IMG/VR virus record: IMGVR_UViG_3300042557_001361
Coordinates: 1 to 36,553 of that record
Length of the DNA stretch: 36,553 nt
DNA from: a virus
Direction: 5' to 3' (one strand)
The notes under the pieces are model-generated. The model saw nothing but the letters and a program-made list of their open reading frames with translations. It was not told the origin of the DNA and did no database searches. Position numbers and translations under genes: made by a program. Positions 1,468 through 23,523 of the stretch are shown in pieces; the stretch's first letter is position 1, and each line of letters opens with the position of its first letter.

Positions 1468-1594
1468 TTTTCTTTCCTTTCTGACAGTTGTTGCACATCA
1501 ATTGTTCACCCATCATCATTTGCAAACGTTGCAATGCTGTGGTATAAACCCAATCACCGCAAATTGAACATCTGTGGATATATTGATCAGTCAT
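1457..1594 (-). CDS. small two-CxxC zinc-ribbon protein (45 aa)
   Basis: This short frame reads MTDQYIHRCSICGDWVYTTA at the start and MCNNCQKGKKNAA at the end, giving CSIC and CNNC knuckles about 22 residues apart, which suits one zinc ion. Its ATG overlaps the stop of the ThyA homologue by 8 bases (ATGACTGA) and its TAA lies within the start of the coiled-coil gene, so it fills the only gap in this coupled string. Function is unknown; such mini-ribbons may bind nucleic acid or a partner protein. It is short, so the call rests on the cysteine pattern and the fit. Confidence 0.75.
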   Translation of the reverse strand: MTDQYIHRCSICGDWVYTTALQRLQMMMGEQLMCNNCQKGKKNAA

Positions 1595-2390
1595 GAATGC
1601 CTGCTAAGAAATGTTCAAATGGCGTAGCAGTCGATGATATACCGCCACCAATAATCATACGAGCATCTGAGCTGATCTCTTCAATATCATGGCCTGACCA
1701 TAATGGCTTGTATGGCATTTCTGTTATGTTTGATGCTTTAATGAATTCAGCTTCACGCATATGTTGCTCGTAAATGTGTAAACTTCCTACAGTATGCGAA
1801 TATGTACCCATTTCAATACCTAGTGCTTGAGCAATTGCACCTTGTAATGCAATGAACTGGACAAAATCGTATGGCATACCTAGGTATAGGTCATTAGATC
1901 TCATGCTCGTTCTTGCTAAAAGCTTATTGTCACGAATAAAGTATTGCAGTGATAGCGTACATGGTACATCTTTAACATCGGCGTTTGTATCTTTGTCAGA
2001 GTTGTAGATGGTTAATACAGCTTGACGAGATGAATCATCTTTTTTAAGCTGATGCACAACTTTGCGTAGATTGCCATGGATTCTAGGTCCATATGCACCA
2101 TGAAATATGCCATCGTCTAAAAAGTTCTTGAACACTTTTGAAGTGTCAACCATAAGCTCAGGCACTGATATCTGACCAACTAATTGCAAAGCTTCCATTG
2201 CACCAATACGCTGGTTAAGAGTTCGATTCTCAAGCATTAGAGGGATATGCCATGGCTTGGTAATTTCTAAGGTTGCATTGAGAACTTCAAATGTTTTCAT
2301 ACCACGTGGTGATATTTCTTTGCCTTGGTTTAGAACATAATTGGTAGCACATTCCAAGGCTTGGCTTGGCGTCTCAGTTACTAGGTACAT
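1587..2390 (-). CDS. ThyA-family dNMP methylase/hydroxymethylase, probably acting on dCMP
   Basis: The 267-residue protein aligns across the ThyA fold: R29 (phosphate arginine), E66 (general acid region), R122, catalytic C144 in DVPCT, the phosphate and substrate loop MRSNDLYLGMPYD, and H205/Y207 in GSLHIY. D167 matches the conserved Asp169 of E. coli ThyA. The residue equal to E. coli Asn177 is Asp (D175). Asn here reads the uracil edge; T4 dCMP hydroxymethylase has Asp, and changing Asn to Asp in L. casei thymidylate synthase turns it toward dCMP. So I infer a dCMP hydroxymethylase or methylase, not a normal thymidylate synthase. GGAGTAGTAC precedes ATG. It overlaps a P-loop kinase upstream and sits beside PLP and other modifying enzymes. 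Confidence 0.85.
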   Translation of the reverse strand: MYLVTETPSQALECATNYVLNQGKEISPRGMKTFEVLNATLEITKPWHIPLMLENRTLNQRIGAMEALQLVGQISVPELMVDTSKVFKNFLDDGIFHGAYGPRIHGNLRKVVHQLKKDDSSRQAVLTIYNSDKDTNADVKDVPCTLSLQYFIRDNKLLARTSMRSNDLYLGMPYDFVQFIALQGAIAQALGIEMGTYSHTVGSLHIYEQHMREAEFIKASNITEMPYKPLWSGHDIEEISSDARMIIGGGISSTATPFEHFLAGIHD

Positions 2391-2829
2391 GTACTACTCC
2401 GCTCTCAATGATTTGCTTGTCAATGTATTTAACTTCTTTGTATGCTTGCATAAATAACTCTTTAGCGTGAAGAACTTGTTCGATTTCATCATCTTCACCA
2501 CGGTTAAGCAATTCGTTTGCAATATCATCATCAGATCTAGTCATGATAATCAGACGAGTTCCCATCTTGGCAAATGCCCAATTGCAAATGTCAAAGCTTT
2601 CAGCATCAAACAATGATGGTCGATCGTAGATAATAGGCCAAACAAGCTCACCTAGATGCCAACGGTCAAGAACCATGTTTGTATTAGTGATTGGTTTTAA
2701 GTACTCTTCATACCACTTTGAATGTGTTGGTTTATCAGCATGCAAATATGTTGCTTTGTTTTGCTCTGCTAAACGTTTTGCGTAAGTGGTTTTGCCTGTA
2801 CCGTCTACACCTTCAATGATAGTAATCAT
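2374..2829 (-). CDS. P-loop (deoxy)nucleotide kinase-like protein
   Basis: The 151-residue protein opens with a thymidylate-kinase-like P-loop, IIEGVDGTGKTTYAKRL (about residues 4-20). It also has a DR-type motif in VLDRWHLGE (D55-R56) and an acidic lid-like segment NRGEDDE. It is shorter than cellular Tmk (about 205-215 residues). Beside a ThyA homologue, it may phosphorylate a modified dNMP toward the triphosphate, or, like phage 5-hydroxymethyl-dU DNA kinases, phosphorylate a hydroxymethyl base in DNA. The start at 2829 overlaps the PLP gene stop as ATGA; a longer in-frame start at 2844 is less likely. The stop lies 17 bases inside the ThyA gene. Confidence 0.8.
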   Translation of the reverse strand: MITIIEGVDGTGKTTYAKRLAEQNKATYLHADKPTHSKWYEEYLKPITNTNMVLDRWHLGELVWPIIYDRPSLFDAESFDICNWAFAKMGTRLIIMTRSDDDIANELLNRGEDDEIEQVLHAKELFMQAYKEVKYIDKQIIESGVVHVPSN

Positions 2830-3713
2830 CTGAACTCGCCCCACTCCCTGTAGCTATCTACTTCAGAGTGGGTCATCTTATCAGGCTTTACATCGCCTGC
2901 GACGTTCCATACTAAGGTGTTTTTATCTTTAGGTGCTCGTGTCTTGTCCAACATGAATCGCTCAAGTCCTTTGCAATCGTATGTTGGTGCGCTGTCAATT
3001 TCTTGGTTAATCTGATCTGCGTGGTCAGCTTTTTCTCTGAATCCTTTGTGGTAAGCCGATACATCTGCTCTACCGATTTCTCCTTTATGCAAGTTTCTAG
3101 CGACAGCCACACCGTGGAACTTGGCTTCTGGCCATGCAATTTGTAAAGTTCTTGTAAGCACTCCTGTACTAATGACTGATACAACGTCTCTAGGTTCATC
3201 ACGATCTCCCCATTGTTGGATAGTTGATTTGACTCCAGCCGCAACCACAAGTGGATGATCTAAGCCGAATGGAACAAACTGTGCATTGTTTTGCTCAGCC
3301 CATTCTTTTGCATATTTGTTCAGAACCGGCATTGCAGCAATACGGCGAAAGATTGGCTTTGCTCCTCTTTCAATGCAAACCAGCTGATGGTCGCTAACTA
3401 CCTTTGAAGCTGGCATAAATAAAGTCAGCTTTTTGTCGTACTTTTTTGCTAATGCGGCCAATGAAACACCTGCCCAACCAACACGTGGTTGCACATATAC
3501 AAGATGATCTGACTCCATGCTTCTCACCAAAAGATCGCCCCAACGACCTTTCGTACCGATACCGGTCATGGAATCGTCCCATATTGTCGCACCATGAAAC
3601 GTTGTGATGTTTGGTGCAGGTGCTTCATCAACCCAATCTCCAGCAAGTTCTAGCCACTCTTCCCGTGAGTTGTAACTATACTTGCTTGAAGAATCTTCTG
3701 TTATCTTAAACAT
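2826..3713 (-). CDS. fold-type-II PLP-dependent enzyme, ACC-deaminase/desulfhydrase-like
   Basis: The 295-residue protein resembles the tryptophan-synthase-beta/ACC-deaminase group. GIGTKGRWGDLL (K55) fits the Schiff-base lysine loop GGNKxRKLxxL. VQPRVGWAGVSLAALAKKY fits the following helix that normally carries QSNHTR, and VISTGVLTRTL fits the phosphate-cradling glycine loop. The usual SNH substrate residues and the multi-glycine loop are replaced, so this is a divergent member with unknown substrate. PLP enzymes occur in phage DNA hypermodification clusters, where they remodel amino-acid adducts on bases; the ThyA-kinase neighbours suggest that here. I chose ATG 3713 (AGAGGCAAAAA before it, ATGTTTAA overlap with the upstream stop) over 3755. 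Confidence 0.65.
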   Translation of the reverse strand: MFKITEDSSSKYSYNSREEWLELAGDWVDEAPAPNITTFHGATIWDDSMTGIGTKGRWGDLLVRSMESDHLVYVQPRVGWAGVSLAALAKKYDKKLTLFMPASKVVSDHQLVCIERGAKPIFRRIAAMPVLNKYAKEWAEQNNAQFVPFGLDHPLVVAAGVKSTIQQWGDRDEPRDVVSVISTGVLTRTLQIAWPEAKFHGVAVARNLHKGEIGRADVSAYHKGFREKADHADQINQEIDSAPTYDCKGLERFMLDKTRAPKDKNTLVWNVAGDVKPDKMTHSEVDSYREWGEFR

Positions 3714-4758
3714 TTTTTGCCTCTCGTAGTTTGTGATAAGTCCAATGCTTTTCATGGTGCGGTATTAGCGAGTTGTTTGTTGCTTGCCATAGTTCTAAAT
3801 GCTCATAACCTTTTGGTACATAGCATTCAACGTATCGGACATAATCACAAGCAACGTCTTCTAATGATAAACCTTTACCTAAACCTCGTTCTTCATCACG
3901 CTTATCATATGGACTTCTAAACTCTTCACAGATCCTGTCCATTGCAGCATCTAAAAAGTCTTTTTGCTTGTATCCTTCATTCTTGAATAACAAGTTTAAA
4001 GCTTCAATTGCATTTTTGCCATAGTTAACACGACTCCATGGATCAATTAGTTCAGGAAAATACTGTGCAACGTCCATTACAAATGCAGTCATGACAAAGT
4101 GAAAGCATTTCAATCCGTTATTTCTATGCCAATCATTGATCCAATTAACACCTTCTCGAATCGACATGGTCAATGGATTTTCTATGATGTAATTATAGAA
4201 ATCTTTAACTAGTCGAGGCATGTACTCTGCTATGTAAAGCTGAGATCCTTTCGGATAAACCTCATTTGGTTTAGGAAACTGTGGAATCTGGTTACCAATG
4301 CTAGTGAAGATTGGCCTTCCTGTTTTCATTTCACTTAGGACATAGTCCTTCATGTGAATCATATTGTCAGCTTCCAAGGCCATATCCGCCAGGATATTGT
4401 TTCTAAAGCCATGGTCGTAACTAAATGATGCACCTGACCCCGTGACTCGATGCAATAAAAACAGGAAGAACCAATCCATTGTGTGCAGATTGTATCCGTC
4501 GAAACGATTATCAATCTGCCACTTCTTTGGGTTGTTGCTTCCATACCAGATTTGCTGAATAGCATTACTAAAACCTGCAAATTCACGATCTACCGTGTCG
4601 TAAATCGTGATGTGATGCTGTAATGGATCGTCTACATGTAGATCTTCTGAAGTATCACGACCGTTTTCGCTTGCAATGTTGATGGTTTGCAAGACTGAAG
4701 CCTTCTGGTAGTATTTCTTAAAATCTTCCCAGTAAATAGTCTCAACGATTTTGGACAT
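3706..4758 (-). CDS. helical protein resembling amino-acid:DNA transferase / base pyrophosphorylase-like enzymes
   Basis: The 350-residue, mostly helical protein has a polar, conserved-looking core around FLFLLHRVTGSGASFSYDHG (about residues 98-117), with H103-R104, G107-S108-G109 and D115-H116-G117 followed by F-R-N-N. This recalls the domain described in phages with hypermodified thymine, called alpha-glutamyl/putrescinyl thymine pyrophosphorylase or amino-acid:DNA transferase. I am matching a remembered pattern, without an alignment, so the family name is tentative. Its position between the SGNH-like and PLP genes, upstream of a kinase and a ThyA homologue, supports a role in base modification. 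The start overlaps the upstream gene by 17 bases. If the family is wrong, this is an uncharacterised helical enzyme. Confidence 0.45.
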   Translation of the reverse strand: MSKIVETIYWEDFKKYYQKASVLQTINIASENGRDTSEDLHVDDPLQHHITIYDTVDREFAGFSNAIQQIWYGSNNPKKWQIDNRFDGYNLHTMDWFFLFLLHRVTGSGASFSYDHGFRNNILADMALEADNMIHMKDYVLSEMKTGRPIFTSIGNQIPQFPKPNEVYPKGSQLYIAEYMPRLVKDFYNYIIENPLTMSIREGVNWINDWHRNNGLKCFHFVMTAFVMDVAQYFPELIDPWSRVNYGKNAIEALNLLFKNEGYKQKDFLDAAMDRICEEFRSPYDKRDEERGLGKGLSLEDVACDYVRYVECYVPKGYEHLELWQATNNSLIPHHEKHWTYHKLREAKNV

Positions 4759-5740
4759 TGTTTACCAAATCCCATTCATAGAATTCTGGAGACAAATGTA
4801 CTGATCCAGGTTTTTCCATGTATGTACGAGCATAATCTTCAGGGTCGATTATGTACCAATTTTCTGGCCACTCATGCACATTGTCAAACTGATATTTCAT
4901 TTCGTTCGTCATAATCAGTCTTACACGGTCACGTTGTGGGTGAGATCCGTAGAATGCAGTTCCTTTATAGAAACCTGTCTTGGGGATCTTGCGCTCTTCA
5001 AACTCAATTGGATACGGTGCAGTTACTTCATAAGTTCCAATCAATCCACCTTCTTGTAAATACTGCAATTGGACTCTAAGATCGGTAATCAGCTTACGAG
5101 CAGATGCTGCAGGATCTAATTGACGGCACAAATGGTGACGGATATCGACGTTTCCTGCGTTGATTACAAGATGTGGCACAAAGTAATCAGGTAAGTATGT
5201 ATTTACTCCGCGCTCAATTAAACCATGCAGGGTCAAACCGTCATGACGGTAGACGACTGTATTTGGACGGTAACGAGATATAGAATGAGAGTCTCCAATG
5301 ACAACTCGTTGAATATCAAGTACAAGATCTTCATGCTTGATAACTTCACAGTCCATAAGCTGACGGATCTTGTCCCATTCTGTATCAGAAAAATCAAATG
5401 AAGTCTTTGCAGCACGAGGACGTAAGATTCTTTCAATGTCACCGATAGGCATATCTAACGCTTTAATGTTTGATAAGTCCATGTCTAATATTCTGGCGAT
5501 TCTGTTTCTAGTTTCTTCAGTGTACCCACCGAACAAATTAAATACTTCACCTTTGAATTCCATTGGTGTGGAAACCAACCATGTACCATCTTTAACTAAA
5601 TCATCATTGCCAAATGCAATCTCAGATTGTGTATTTAAGGCAGTATCTACCATGCATTTCTGCATTCTAGGCCAAGCAGAACGATGGCTCGCAATTCTAT
5701 CTGTAAATGAGGTGACTACATCATCAAGTACATATTTCAT
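4742..5740 (-). CDS. SGNH/GDSL-like hydrolase or acyltransferase
   Basis: The 332-residue protein has a helical N-terminal half without known motifs, then an SGNH-like core: VVIGDSHSISRYRP (G149-D150-S151, block I with the nucleophile), HGLIERG (block II glycine), and VINAGNVDIRHHL (G196-N197-V198-D199, block III). The block III segment resembles GEIDxRxH of capsule-related SGNH proteins. The C-terminal DxxH of block V is not intact: PGSVHLS has the His but Gly at the Asp position. It may add or remove an acyl group on a modified nucleotide, or have lost catalysis. The start overlaps the preceding stop as ATGA; a 15-bp near-palindrome (GGATGGTTACCATCC, + strand) lies just before it. Confidence 0.55.
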   Translation of the reverse strand: MKYVLDDVVTSFTDRIASHRSAWPRMQKCMVDTALNTQSEIAFGNDDLVKDGTWLVSTPMEFKGEVFNLFGGYTEETRNRIARILDMDLSNIKALDMPIGDIERILRPRAAKTSFDFSDTEWDKIRQLMDCEVIKHEDLVLDIQRVVIGDSHSISRYRPNTVVYRHDGLTLHGLIERGVNTYLPDYFVPHLVINAGNVDIRHHLCRQLDPAASARKLITDLRVQLQYLQEGGLIGTYEVTAPYPIEFEERKIPKTGFYKGTAFYGSHPQRDRVRLIMTNEMKYQFDNVHEWPENWYIIDPEDYARTYMEKPGSVHLSPEFYEWDLVNNVQNR

Positions 5741-5952
5741 GGGATGGTTACCATCCAACCTGATTCTACTTTTGCAATTGCACCTGGTACTTGATAACCA
5801 AAGTCGTAACCCATGCTTGCTAAGTAGATACTATTTTCGCTTGCAACTTTTGCACATTCTTCAGCTTGCTTGCGAGTTGAGTATGTAATCCAACCTACTT
5901 TACATCCACTTTCCCAGCTAATGTAATTGTCTGGATATTTTTTTACTGACAT
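5737..5952 (-). CDS. small protein of unknown function, first gene of the modification operon
   Basis: The 71-residue product (MSVKKYPDNYISWESG...) has mixed alpha/beta character, one Cys, several aromatic residues and no motif I recognise. The start at 5952 is set by AGGAGG at 5-base spacing, inside the shared leader motif AACCGCCAGGAGG; in-frame codons further upstream would run through the promoter. It overlaps the SGNH-like gene as ATGA, so it is the first gene read from the promoter near 5996-6025. Function is unknown; the position suggests an accessory or regulator for the downstream cassette. Confidence 0.8.
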   Translation of the reverse strand: MSVKKYPDNYISWESGCKVGWITYSTRKQAEECAKVASENSIYLASMGYDFGYQVPGAIAKVESGWMVTIP

Positions 5953-5960
5953 TTTTTCCT

Positions 5961-5970
5961 CCTGGCGGTT
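5961..5970 (-). promoter_or_regulatory. leader motif AACCGCCAGG fused to the ribosome binding site, copy 1
   Basis: The minus strand reads AACCGCCAGGAGG followed by AAAAA and ATG. The same AACCGCCAGGAG string occurs in the leader of the first early operon at 10442-10451. It may extend the Shine-Dalgarno site or be bound by a regulator. Confidence 0.6.
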
Positions 5971-5973
5971 AAT

Positions 5974-5989
5974 ATTAACTTGCGTTAAT
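5974..5989 (-). promoter_or_regulatory. 5'-UTR hairpin or operator, leader 1
   Basis: ATTAAC-TTGC-GTTAAT (+ strand) is a perfect 6-bp inverted repeat with a 4-base loop. It begins 6 bases downstream of the predicted -10 element, so it would form the 5' end of the transcript. The second leader has a hairpin of different sequence at exactly the same distance from its -10, which argues for RNA structure over a shared operator. Confidence 0.55.
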
Positions 5990-5995
5990 AAGTCC

Positions 5996-6025
5996 ATTGT
6001 ATCATGTATGTCCACGATTGTACAA
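5996..6025 (-). promoter_or_regulatory. predicted promoter of the modification operon
   Basis: On the minus strand TTGTAC (6025-6020) and TACAAT (6001-5996) are separated by 18 bases, close to sigma-70/SigA consensus. CGTGGACA lies in the spacer. The region lies after the stop of the dUTPase-like gene at 6036 and fills the only sizeable gap between the two early gene strings. Confidence 0.6.
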
Positions 6026-6035
6026 TCTAGCTTTT

Positions 6036-6467
6036 TCATTCAATATGTTCACAAGCAATTGGTGTGCATAGAACTGCAGTATCATCAAATGCACGTCCAC
6101 AAGTTGTGCACTTTCCTGCAACTCCGTCATATCCTGCAAGTTGGCGCTTTGCGTTTTTGTCTGCTTTAGCAAAATACATGTCTAGTAGTTCTTTTTCATT
6201 GGTGTTTGTAATCAGAACAAGGTTACACCAAAAATGTAGTACATCAATCAGCTCACCTAAATAAGCTTGACGGTTGACATGGCGAGATGTTGCCCATGGC
6301 TTCCAACCAGTTTCATTAAGAGCTTCATGCAATTCATCAGCTAATGCCAATGACATATCTCGGATATACTGAGCACGTTCTTCATCAGAAAGTGTTGTTA
6401 CATCCACACCGTAGTGTTTCTTTTGTAGTTCTCTTTGACGATCCAATATCATTTGTAATGCACTCAT
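6036..6467 (-). CDS. all-alpha dUTPase/dCTPase-type pyrophosphatase with C-terminal zinc ribbon
   Basis: The 143-residue protein matches the dimeric, helical dUTPase family (also T4 gp56 dCTPase-dUTPase and MazG relatives). Metal ligands appear as LADELHEALNETGWKPW (E45, E48) and GELIDVLHFW (E72, D75). The family hydrolyses dUTP and/or dCTP to the monophosphate. Unusually, the last 25 residues hold CTTC (120-123), C134 and C139, a likely zinc ribbon. Next to dCMP deaminase and upstream of a probable dCMP-directed ThyA homologue, it would supply monophosphate and lower the normal pool. GGAGGCAAACG precedes the ATG at 6467, which overlaps the dCMP deaminase stop as ATGA. Confidence 0.8.
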   Translation of the reverse strand: MSALQMILDRQRELQKKHYGVDVTTLSDEERAQYIRDMSLALADELHEALNETGWKPWATSRHVNRQAYLGELIDVLHFWCNLVLITNTNEKELLDMYFAKADKNAKRQLAGYDGVAGKCTTCGRAFDDTAVLCTPIACEHIE

Positions 6468-6889
6468 TCGTTTGCCTCCTGTTGTAGTGAGATGCCACAC
6501 GCATCTGCTAGTTTCTTTATTGAGTCTAGGTCATAGACTTTAGGATCGATTGTTTGTGAGTACATCACATACTTGATCCCATAACTTGCGATGACTTTAA
6601 TGCATTCTGCACATGGATGATGGCTTACGTACATGTATCCATCACGTGTTTGATCTGGTGTGCAGTACCTCAATGCATTAACTTCAGCATGAATCACAAA
6701 GCCACGCCTAGCGTCTCGATCGGCCCAACTGATGTTGACGCCAGGCGCAGCTCCGTTGTAGCCGATGCTGATTATGCTGTGATCTGAACGGAGAACACAA
6801 GCACCGACTTTAAAGTATGGATCTTCACTGCGATAGGAGGCAGCTTTCGCAATTTCCAATCCATATTTGTCCCAGGACATACGAGTCAT
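6464..6889 (-). CDS. dCMP deaminase
   Basis: The 141-residue protein has the zinc-dependent cytidine/deoxycytidylate deaminase motifs: H67-A-E69 in VIHAEVNAL and P92-C93-x2-C96 in HHPCAECIKV. An N-terminal segment, YFKVGACVLRSD, is typical of dCMP deaminases. It converts dCMP to dUMP, the substrate of thymidylate synthesis. If the phage ThyA homologue uses dCMP, deaminase and ThyA homologue would compete for it, as T4 dCMP deaminase and dCMP hydroxymethylase do. The start at 6889 overlaps the upstream TGA as ATGA; an internal ATG at 6880 is also possible. Confidence 0.92.
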   Translation of the reverse strand: MTRMSWDKYGLEIAKAASYRSEDPYFKVGACVLRSDHSIISIGYNGAAPGVNISWADRDARRGFVIHAEVNALRYCTPDQTRDGYMYVSHHPCAECIKVIASYGIKYVMYSQTIDPKVYDLDSIKKLADACGISLQQEANE

Positions 6890-22258: not shown

Positions 22259-22457
22259 TATTGCTCTCCATAACTACGCCTTGACGGACTCGATTTGACA
22301 AATTGCCCCTGTATGTTGTGTAATTAAAAGTAAATAACGGATTGTTATAGAACACATTTGGTGCTTCATAAGCAAAGCGGACTACGTTTGCTGCGTTAGA
22401 TAGCCGAGGTTGCATCTTCTGGAAAGGAGTTTGAAAGGGGAGCATTTTTGCTGCCAT
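22245..22457 (-). CDS. small protein overlapping the glycosyltransferase gene (70 aa)
   Basis: MAAKMLPFQTPFQKMQPRLS and on to FTFNYTTYRGNLSNRVRQ. The beta-strand-rich, basic 70-residue protein has no known motif. Its 5' end overlaps the GT4 gene by 62 bases in another frame and its 3' end overlaps the connector by 14 bases. AAGGAGAACAAA precedes ATG 22457. It may be a head or neck accessory protein. Confidence 0.65.
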   Translation of the reverse strand: MAAKMLPFQTPFQKMQPRLSNAANVVRFAYEAPNVFYNNPLFTFNYTTYRGNLSNRVRQGVVMESNNGSL

Positions 22458-23523
22458 TTTGTTCTCCTTCTAGTTGATACCAGCCATCGTCCCAAAGAGT
22501 GAGCAAGCGTTCAAAGTACTCTTCATACTGAATGCCGATTGTATCAAGACTGTAGTTCCCAATAGCCCATCTGCGGATAGATTCATTATTTAATTTTTTT
22601 ACATCTTCGGCTGCTTTCATAAACTCAGCCAAAGTCCTGCATCGATAACCGGTAAATCCTGGTATGTTGGTTTCTGTGAATGCTCCCCAGTCGGTTGTGA
22701 TAGTTGGAGTTCCACAGGCTTGTGCTTCGATAACCACATTACCAAATGGTTCTATATACAGAGTAGGTGCAAATGTTGCAATTGCTCCGCCCATAAGCTT
22801 GGCTCTTTCTTCAGGGCCAACAGATCCTACAAATTCACCATATCCGGTGCCTTCACCAGGACCTGCAAGGATCAGACGCTTACCTAGACGCTCACATACT
22901 TCTTGAGCGATCTTGTAGCCTTTGCGGTCAATTATTCTGCCAATGTAGAGATAGTAATCTCCATCATGGGTTCCCAAAGGGAACATTTTGGGTTCTAAGT
23001 AACCATTGATGACAACATCAAAAAACTGACCATCTACGGCAGTAGGGTTTTGATGTCCTGCGTAAACTGAGTGCATCCATGCATAGGATTCAAAGACTCG
23101 GTATTTGCTAAATACTCCACCATAGCCAACACCAAACTCGACTGACATGTGGTTAGGAAAAGCATCAGCAATTGGCTTCTGTGCAGTTCCACCGATCAGG
23201 CATATAAAGTCTTTTGGCTGGATCCGCTTATTGATCTGACTGATTGCCATACCATTAAACGTTTTCCAAAGACTGTTGTTGATATCAAATGGGTATTGAG
23301 TGTAATGAGTTGACCCGACTTGAGCTGATCTGTAGTCCTCGGTTGCACACACTATGTGTTCTGTTACGTCACATTCAGGTTTGACTTCTCCTGAGTATAG
23401 GAACACTTCATGTCCAAGGTCATGCATCATCATACAGAACCGACGGACTTTCTCGGTATAAGCACAGTTTGCAAACTTTTTTGTTACCTGCGTGTGTGGC
23501 AGTGCCACAATATGAAAACGCAT
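22396..23523 (-). CDS. GT4-family glycosyltransferase
   Basis: The 375-residue protein ends in the GT-B, family-4 pattern: YIGRIIDRKGYKIAQEVCER, LAGPGEGTGY, and EPFGNVVIEAQACGTPTITT followed by DWGAFTE. The glutamate of E-P-F-G-N and the E-A-Q-A-C-G region bind the nucleotide-sugar. It probably transfers a sugar to a virion protein, or possibly to hydroxymethylated DNA bases if the left-hand cassette acts. GGGGGGAATCA precedes the ATG. It belongs to the island between capsid and connector genes. Confidence 0.85.
   Translation of the reverse strand: MRFHIVALPHTQVTKKFANCAYTEKVRRFCMMMHDLGHEVFLYSGEVKPECDVTEHIVCATEDYRSAQVGSTHYTQYPFDINNSLWKTFNGMAISQINKRIQPKDFICLIGGTAQKPIADAFPNHMSVEFGVGYGGVFSKYRVFESYAWMHSVYAGHQNPTAVDGQFFDVVINGYLEPKMFPLGTHDGDYYLYIGRIIDRKGYKIAQEVCERLGKRLILAGPGEGTGYGEFVGSVGPEERAKLMGGAIATFAPTLYIEPFGNVVIEAQACGTPTITTDWGAFTETNIPGFTGYRCRTLAEFMKAAEDVKKLNNESIRRWAIGNYSLDTIGIQYEEYFERLLTLWDDGWYQLEGEQNGSKNAPLSNSFPEDATSAI

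Follow-up and report, generated by a model that had tools for sequence, protein, structure and literature searches.

A conserved viral gene module predicted to hypermodify cytosine in DNA

Results

Gene content of the locus

The window analyzed here is the whole of a 36,553-base virus record, IMGVR_UViG_3300042557_001361, and the element under study is a minus-strand gene cassette predicted to act on cytosine in viral DNA. The five-gene core of the cassette (1587-5740) encodes an SGNH-fold protein, a 350-aa protein (hereafter F350), a fold-type II pyridoxal phosphate (PLP) enzyme, a nucleotide kinase, and a ThyA homologue, and the genes of a dUTPase-type enzyme and a dCMP deaminase lie directly upstream. 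From the SGNH gene to the ThyA gene the successive overlaps are 17, 8, 4, and 17 nt, a tightly coupled, operon-like arrangement. The features are listed in Table 1; all cassette coordinates are start-corrected.

The first-pass annotation of this stretch had proposed a hypermodification cassette of six adjacent, coupled genes at 1587-6889. The cassette itself is supported, and the genes, the strand, and the overlaps agreed with our analysis; the interval, in fact, holds eight genes. The ThyA-type hydroxymethylase, the PLP enzyme, the SGNH-like protein, and the two nucleotide enzymes just upstream were all identified again by family, profile, or structure matches. Two elements of the proposal were dropped. 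One was the sixth gene, a 71-aa open reading frame (ORF) that shares a 4-nt overlap with the SGNH gene; neither close relative inspected (contigs L046 and L042) has it, and in both the dUTPase and SGNH genes overlap. The other was a promoter of the cassette's own, for which the support consisted of a single 9/12 match with TG at 6024-5996, in a region with 7 promoter-like sites compared to 16.3 in shuffled sequences.

We regard the cassette ORFs as real genes because the divergence between the window and its relative L013 was 5-19% at second and 44-57% at third codon positions, indicating purifying selection, and because the set is encoded by about 45 IMG/VR contigs. The window also encodes terminase, portal, head, and tail proteins along with a WhiB protein. 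This gene content, on which the putative host assignment rests, is consistent with a freshwater actinophage.

Table 1. Features of the cassette and of the remainder of the window.
Feature	Position	Strand	Evidence	Predicted role or remark
ThyA-family pyrimidine hydroxymethylase	1587-2390	minus	PF00303 E=6e-22	Predicted dCMP 5-hydroxymethylase
P-loop nucleotide kinase	2374-2829	minus	phrog_761 E=3e-9	Most likely 5-hydroxymethyl-dCMP kinase
Fold-type II PLP enzyme	2826-3713	minus	phrog_7093 E=2e-28	M6 gp52 homologue
F350, all-alpha	3706-4758	minus	Predicted fold	ADDT / aGPT-pyrophosphorylase / HMUDK_hel fold group
SGNH-fold protein	4742-5740	minus	AlphaFold model; phrog_13881 (uncharacterised) E=1.5e-48	
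71-aa ORF	5737-5952	minus	AGGAGG ribosome-binding site upstream	At most accessory
dUTPase_2-type enzyme	6036-6467	minus	PF08761 E=1e-13; phrog_18650 E=2e-35	Possible dCTPase/dUTPase; nucleotide supply
dCMP deaminase	6464-6889	minus	PF00383 E=3e-20; phrog_174 E=1e-34	Nucleotide supply
WhiB-like transcription factor	84-419	minus	PF02467 E=2e-15	Points to an actinobacterial host
Small HNH endonuclease	851-1117	minus	PF01844	Immediately downstream of the cassette
Group 1 glycosyltransferase	22396-23523	minus	PF00534 E=3e-14; phrog_3408	Could glycosylate 5-hydroxymethylcytosine, the virion, or the host surface

Target base predicted from the ThyA homologue

In the thymidylate synthase (TS) family, Asn at position 177 selects for dUMP and Asp for dCMP. 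The window ThyA homologue has Asp at the position of E. coli TS N177 and Thr at that of H147, and it keeps the catalytic Cys146 together with Arg166, Ser167, Asp169, His207, and Tyr209, all as in T4 gp42. Every readable ThyA-family match in the screened contigs had Asp177 and never Asn (four matches were unreadable); this includes T4-like contigs whose F350 and SGNH proteins are just ~30% identical to those of the window. Aeromonas phages 44RR and 25, both with SGNH homologues, encode gp42-type enzymes at 55-57% identity. The corresponding protein of the thymidine-hypermodifying phage M6, gp58, has Asn177. In the MetaGPA study, enzymes of contigs selected for cytosine modification were best told apart from the remainder by TS positions 177 and 147 (PMC8670742). 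Because of Asp177 and Thr147 in the window homologue and Asp177 in its relatives, the residue pattern indicates that the target base of the cassette is almost certainly cytosine. Of the two bases considered in the first-pass annotation, cytosine was retained and thymine was discarded on account of Asp177. A rival reading, thymine hypermodification as in M6 and ViI with 5-hydroxymethyl-dUMP as the product of the ThyA homologue, would fit the homology of the PLP enzyme to M6 gp52 and the ADDT-like fold of F350, and actinophages with predicted thymidine hypermodification genes do exist (Tonitrus, PMC11955845). Nevertheless, we consider it very improbable, since each ThyA homologue that could be read next to the module has Asp177, never Asn, and since no hidden Markov model (HMM) match to a 5-hydroxymethyldeoxyuridine (5hmdU) DNA kinase or to ADDT was obtained in the records G001 and G002, the latter of 164 kb.

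The window kinase resembles thymidylate kinase (TMK)-like genes adjoining Asp-type hydroxymethylases in phages DSL-LC01, Phendrix, and Sixama, which do not carry the module, and also the gene next to the ThyA homologue in phage nattely. This neighborhood of its relatives makes a 5-hydroxymethyl-dCMP kinase the likeliest assignment. The Pfam scan revealed no match of the window kinase to PF18748 or PF18723, while M6 gp54 does match PF18748. A kinase of the known 5hmdU-DNA type was rejected as the first choice in view of the relatives beside hydroxymethylases.

Conservation of the F350/PLP/SGNH module

The F350-only query of IMG/VR returned at least 504 confirmed relatives. Module composition was counted at 24 non-redundant F350 loci, each flanked by 4 kb or more on both sides, and the SGNH gene was found in 22 and the PLP gene in 21 of them, in variable order. 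Loci retrieved by the PLP or SGNH query also carried F350 wherever the contig was long enough. The order in the window is SGNH-F350-PLP-kinase-ThyA, that in T4-like contigs ThyA-deaminase-F350-PLP-SGNH, and that in L235 ThyA-deaminase-SGNH-PLP-F350; further orders include an F350 paralogue, U334, and a gene resembling C5-methyltransferases. SGNH and F350 occur in a single frame in L204, and L231 has an SGNH gene without an adjacent PLP gene. The first-pass annotation had linked the gene set to actinobacterial viruses, but the module is also present in T4-like viral contigs, including 57-kb and 164-kb records. Judged by these loci, F350, PLP, and SGNH are a conserved unit that accompanies Asp-type hydroxymethylases in divergent viruses. 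The search for the same genes in other phages, as the annotation had suggested, recovered the module from IMG/VR loci but no F350 homologue from ~50,700 GenBank phage records (four diverse queries); none was detected by profile in the selected genomes either.

U334 (L098:8792-9847, L103:6928-7932, L209:7148-8149, and others) is distantly paralogous to F350 (hhalign E=2e-5) and is frequently paired with it, much as M6-like phages have two proteins of the pyrophosphorylase type. The C5-cytosine-methyltransferase-like gene (PF00145 E=2e-15) adjoins SGNH in some T4-like contigs (L105:9882-11084, L098, L099, L103, L169, L234, and L250) and has its relatives in S-TIM5-type cyanophages. It was rejected as a core member, being present in just 4 of the 24 loci. 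In loci without PLP and SGNH genes, an HhH-GPD DNA-glycosylase-like gene was observed directly before the F350-U334 pair (L230:5207-5983, PF00730 E=8e-8; L245:2228-3082, by sequence resemblance). F350 modules were also present in contigs binned as metagenome-assembled genomes of Microbacteriaceae, Opitutales, Bacteroidetes, and Thermoleophilia (L248-L251); these are probably viral contigs in the bins.

F350 and the PLP enzyme

Neither the window F350 nor any of 37 diverse relatives (38 members in total) matched a relevant Pfam family, the cut-off of PF18724 not being reached, and the PHROG scan of the window protein gave nothing relevant. The family aGPT-Pplase3 (PF18746) had no match in any of the set and is hence uninformative. 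The AlphaFold model of F350 had a predicted local distance difference test score (pLDDT) of 69.7 and a predicted template modelling score of 0.74. It yielded no fold match in PDB, where the top entry was MutYX at E=1. The Foldseek search of BFVD gave an ADDT-named protein as the best match (E=3e-13, 30% identity, probability 1.00). Further matches were a second ADDT-named protein (E=2.9e-4, 12% identity, probability 1.00), the alpha-glutamyl/putrescinyl thymine pyrophosphorylase Pplase1 (E=0.022, probability 1.00), and, as weak matches, HMUDK_hel proteins from phiW-14 and phiRSL1. Within ranks 1-11, every named protein was ADDT, Pplase1, or HMUDK_hel, and the remainder were uncharacterised. 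On structural grounds only, F350 appears to be a divergent member of the ADDT / aGPT-Pplase / HMUDK_hel fold group and not a member of PF18724, so the earlier label of an ADDT/pyrophosphorylase-like protein holds for the predicted fold and not for Pfam. It is predicted to couple the modified base to an amino acid or amine. The non-significant hhalign path between F350 and HMUDK_hel pairs FTSIG with YTGAY, GLKxF with GWGPF, and YGKNAIEAL with AGPGAIRGL, and EDVxCDYVRY can be paired by eye with EHTLCEFDKY; these pairings were not used as proof.

The window PLP enzyme and M6 gp52 are homologues (hhalign E=9e-11). In the M6 cluster, gp52 is flanked by the ADDT gene gp51 and by gp53, and the kinase parts gp54 and gp55 are encoded nearby. 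Lys69 (long ORF numbering), within the motif GTKxR, is invariant, and cysteine synthases are among the sequence relatives. PLP enzymes of thymidine-hypermodification pathways reportedly decarboxylate the installed amino acid. The published M6-type cassette has a PLP enzyme, a radical SAM (S-adenosylmethionine) protein, and two aGPT-Pplase proteins (PMC9476957). Related PLP domains were also observed within proteins annotated as DNA methyltransferases in Erythrobacter phages (L003, L004), and a PLP relative adjoins ParB/sulfiredoxin genes in Microcystis phage Mae-JY30 (L005). These relatives possibly belong to another PLP-linked DNA modification.

The SGNH-fold protein

The AlphaFold model of the SGNH protein (pLDDT 86.8) matched SGNH/GDSL hydrolases in PDB (Foldseek E=2e-4, probability 1.00), and the catalytic Ser, Asn, and His blocks of SGNH/GDSL enzymes are present in the family. 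Ser151, His152, Asp199, Arg201, His203, and His315 are invariant and Asn197 is nearly so in 37 members. The protein is predicted to serve as an acyltransferase or esterase for the modified base. Its earlier description as an unfamiliar addition to hypermodification clusters was also supported.

The N-terminal domain bears a faint sequence resemblance to T4 beta-glucosyltransferase (BGT). Sub-threshold matches to PF09198 were obtained for 5 of the 37 members (best E=0.013), and in the 164-kb record this domain was the sole PF09198-like place (E=0.002, sub-threshold); with hhalign the comparison with T4 BGT gave E=0.001, and controls gave 0.02 or worse. Scans of the T4-like carrier G002 and of 44RR and phage 25 for T4-type alpha- and beta-glucosyltransferases gave nothing above the cut-off; T4 served as the positive control. 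The BGT-like domain and the missing T4-type glucosyltransferases in these three suggest that the SGNH protein may bind 5-hydroxymethylcytosine (5hmC) in DNA.

In the cultured Aeromonas phages with gp42-type dCMP hydroxymethylases, the proteins ORF233c of 44RR2.8t (795 aa) and ORF225c of phage 25 share the SGNH region of the window protein at 28-34% identity. Within ORF233c, the SGNH part is fused to a C-terminal HMUDK_hel-like region (PF18723 E=9e-4, sub-threshold). Unlike in the window cassette, no homologue of F350 or of the phrog_7093 PLP enzyme was found in either genome.

These observations bear on an alternative in which the SGNH protein, binding 5hmC DNA through its BGT-like domain, acylates the 5-hydroxymethyl group, with F350 as a base-flipping partner and the PLP enzyme preparing the donor. 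The ester would be the final mark or else a leaving group displaced by F350 instead of phosphate. Such a route would be in line with the slightly higher frequency of SGNH than of PLP at the F350 loci, with the fusions of SGNH to F350 in L204 and to the HMUDK_hel-like domain in 44RR, with SGNH genes lacking a PLP neighbor in L231 or any phrog_7093 gene in 44RR and phage 25, with the BGT likeness, and with the failure to recognize a DNA kinase in G001 or G002. On the other hand, the BGT likeness is under every curated threshold and ~40 residues long, SGNH proteins are mostly hydrolases, and no candidate for the acyl donor was found. We regard acylation of 5hmC as unlikely to be the explanation of the module.

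Proposed pathway

According to the reading that we prefer, the cassette carries out an amino-acid-type hypermodification of 5hmC. At the nucleotide level, where residues and families lend support, dCMP would be converted to 5-hydroxymethyl-dCMP by the ThyA homologue and the kinase would move this product toward the triphosphate, while the dUTPase/dCTPase-type enzyme and the dCMP deaminase would tune the nucleotide pools, so that 5hmC enters DNA. For the steps on DNA we infer from homology that F350, as a base-flipping protein of the ADDT/pyrophosphorylase type, would join the base, at its 5-methylene carbon, to a free amino acid or amine; the PLP enzyme would remodel the installed group, most likely by decarboxylation; and the SGNH protein would add or remove an acyl group. 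Overall, the pathway would apply the M6 thymidine-hypermodification logic to cytosine and bring in SGNH as a new part, and the expected benefit would be escape from restriction and other DNA-targeting defenses. We estimate the probability of the whole model at about 0.62; some form of cytosine hypermodification by the cassette is considerably more probable. An extended form, in which the large set of uncultured viruses behind the F350 relatives makes a hitherto undescribed amino-acid- or amine-derived, possibly acylated 5-methylcytosine derivative, with activation by acylation and not by phosphorylation, is put forward only tentatively.

Several points weigh against the model. Activation of the 5-hydroxymethyl group is its main gap, as neither G001 nor G002 has a recognized 5hmdU-DNA kinase (PF18748, PF18723). 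The fold assignment of F350 depends on one AlphaFold model of moderate confidence. Of the profile comparisons proposed in the first-pass annotation, the hhalign alignments of F350 with ADDT and HMUDK_hel were not significant; this test is weak because the known relatives HMUDK_hel and ADDT fail it too (E=0.019). Some F350 loci have U334 but no PLP or SGNH gene nearby. The SGNH protein does not have the usual Asp of DxxH, the position being Gly312 in the window and a non-Asp residue in relatives, with Glu309 conserved nearby. Finally, with the window's own glycosyltransferase, 5hmC could instead or also be glycosylated. In an alternative reading, ThyA, kinase, deaminase, and dUTPase would make just 5hmC (or methyl-dCMP) for T4-style glycosylation, and F350, PLP, and SGNH would be accessory proteins with another task. 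Phage DSL-LC01, which combines an Asp-type hydroxymethylase, a glycosyltransferase, and a UDP-galactopyranose mutase, offers a parallel. The window glycosyltransferase, however, sits among tail and tail-fibre genes; the three module genes are kept with Asp-type hydroxymethylases across divergent viruses, and the relatives of F350 and PLP belong to DNA modification systems. We consider glycosylation as the only modification improbable.

Relation to known systems

The closest parallel is the M6-type cassette (PMC9476957), which likewise has a hydroxymethylase, a kinase, a pyrophosphorylase/ADDT-fold protein, and a homologous PLP enzyme (gp52) in one cluster. Its hydroxymethylase is of the Asn type and that of the window of the Asp (cytosine) type; moreover, the window F350 is not detected by ADDT/HMUDK_hel HMMs and the window kinase is not PF18748. 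While the M6-type cassette comprises a nucleotide kinase, aGPT-Pplase1, aGPT-Pplase2, and a radical SAM protein, the window cassette genes include no radical SAM and add SGNH. The T4 5hmC pathway (gp56, gp42, gp1, and alpha-/beta-glucosyltransferases) shares an Asp-type dCMP hydroxymethylase, a dUTPase/dCTPase-type enzyme, and a nucleotide kinase with the window, but in the T4-like carriers tested the T4-type glucosyltransferases were not found, and F350, PLP, and SGNH are present instead. The MetaGPA 5-carbamoyloxymethylcytosine system (PMC8670742) likewise comes from environmental phage contigs, with an Asp177 hydroxymethylase and a dCMP deaminase feeding a 5hmC-modifying enzyme. It uses a carbamoyltransferase, a domain that the Pfam scan did not reveal in the window cassette genes. 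In the CmoA/CmoX/CmoY carboxymethylcytosine-glycine system (PMC12783734), an amino acid also ends on cytosine in phage DNA, but by way of carboxy-SAM, a C5-methyltransferase homologue, and an amide ligase; neither 5hmC nor a PLP enzyme nor an ADDT-like protein is involved.

Known cytosine hypermodifications comprise glycosides, 5-carbamoyloxymethylcytosine (PMC8670742), and carboxymethylcytosine-glycine (PMC12783734). Searches of the openly accessible literature returned no paper describing a pathway of the ADDT/PLP type that acts on 5hmC, and none that assigns an SGNH protein to DNA modification. To our knowledge, the installation of amino acids by ADDT/pyrophosphorylase-type proteins with PLP remodelling has been described for thymine alone. 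From the pairing of such logic with Asp-type dCMP hydroxymethylases across numerous environmental viruses, a new modified cytosine is predicted, which probably protects lake viruses against restriction. Under the model, an SGNH-fold protein would take part in DNA chemistry, and ORF233c of 44RR, sequenced but unexplained, would gain a first functional link; a new cytosine-modifying set could serve epigenomic sequencing.

A UDP-galactopyranose mutase gene lies two genes away from the SGNH homologue in Aeromonas phage 25 (L002:3776-4840), and the glycosyltransferase and mutase genes of DSL-LC01 are at L006:17858-19994. These genes of the two phages are a hint of galactofuranosyl-5hmC.

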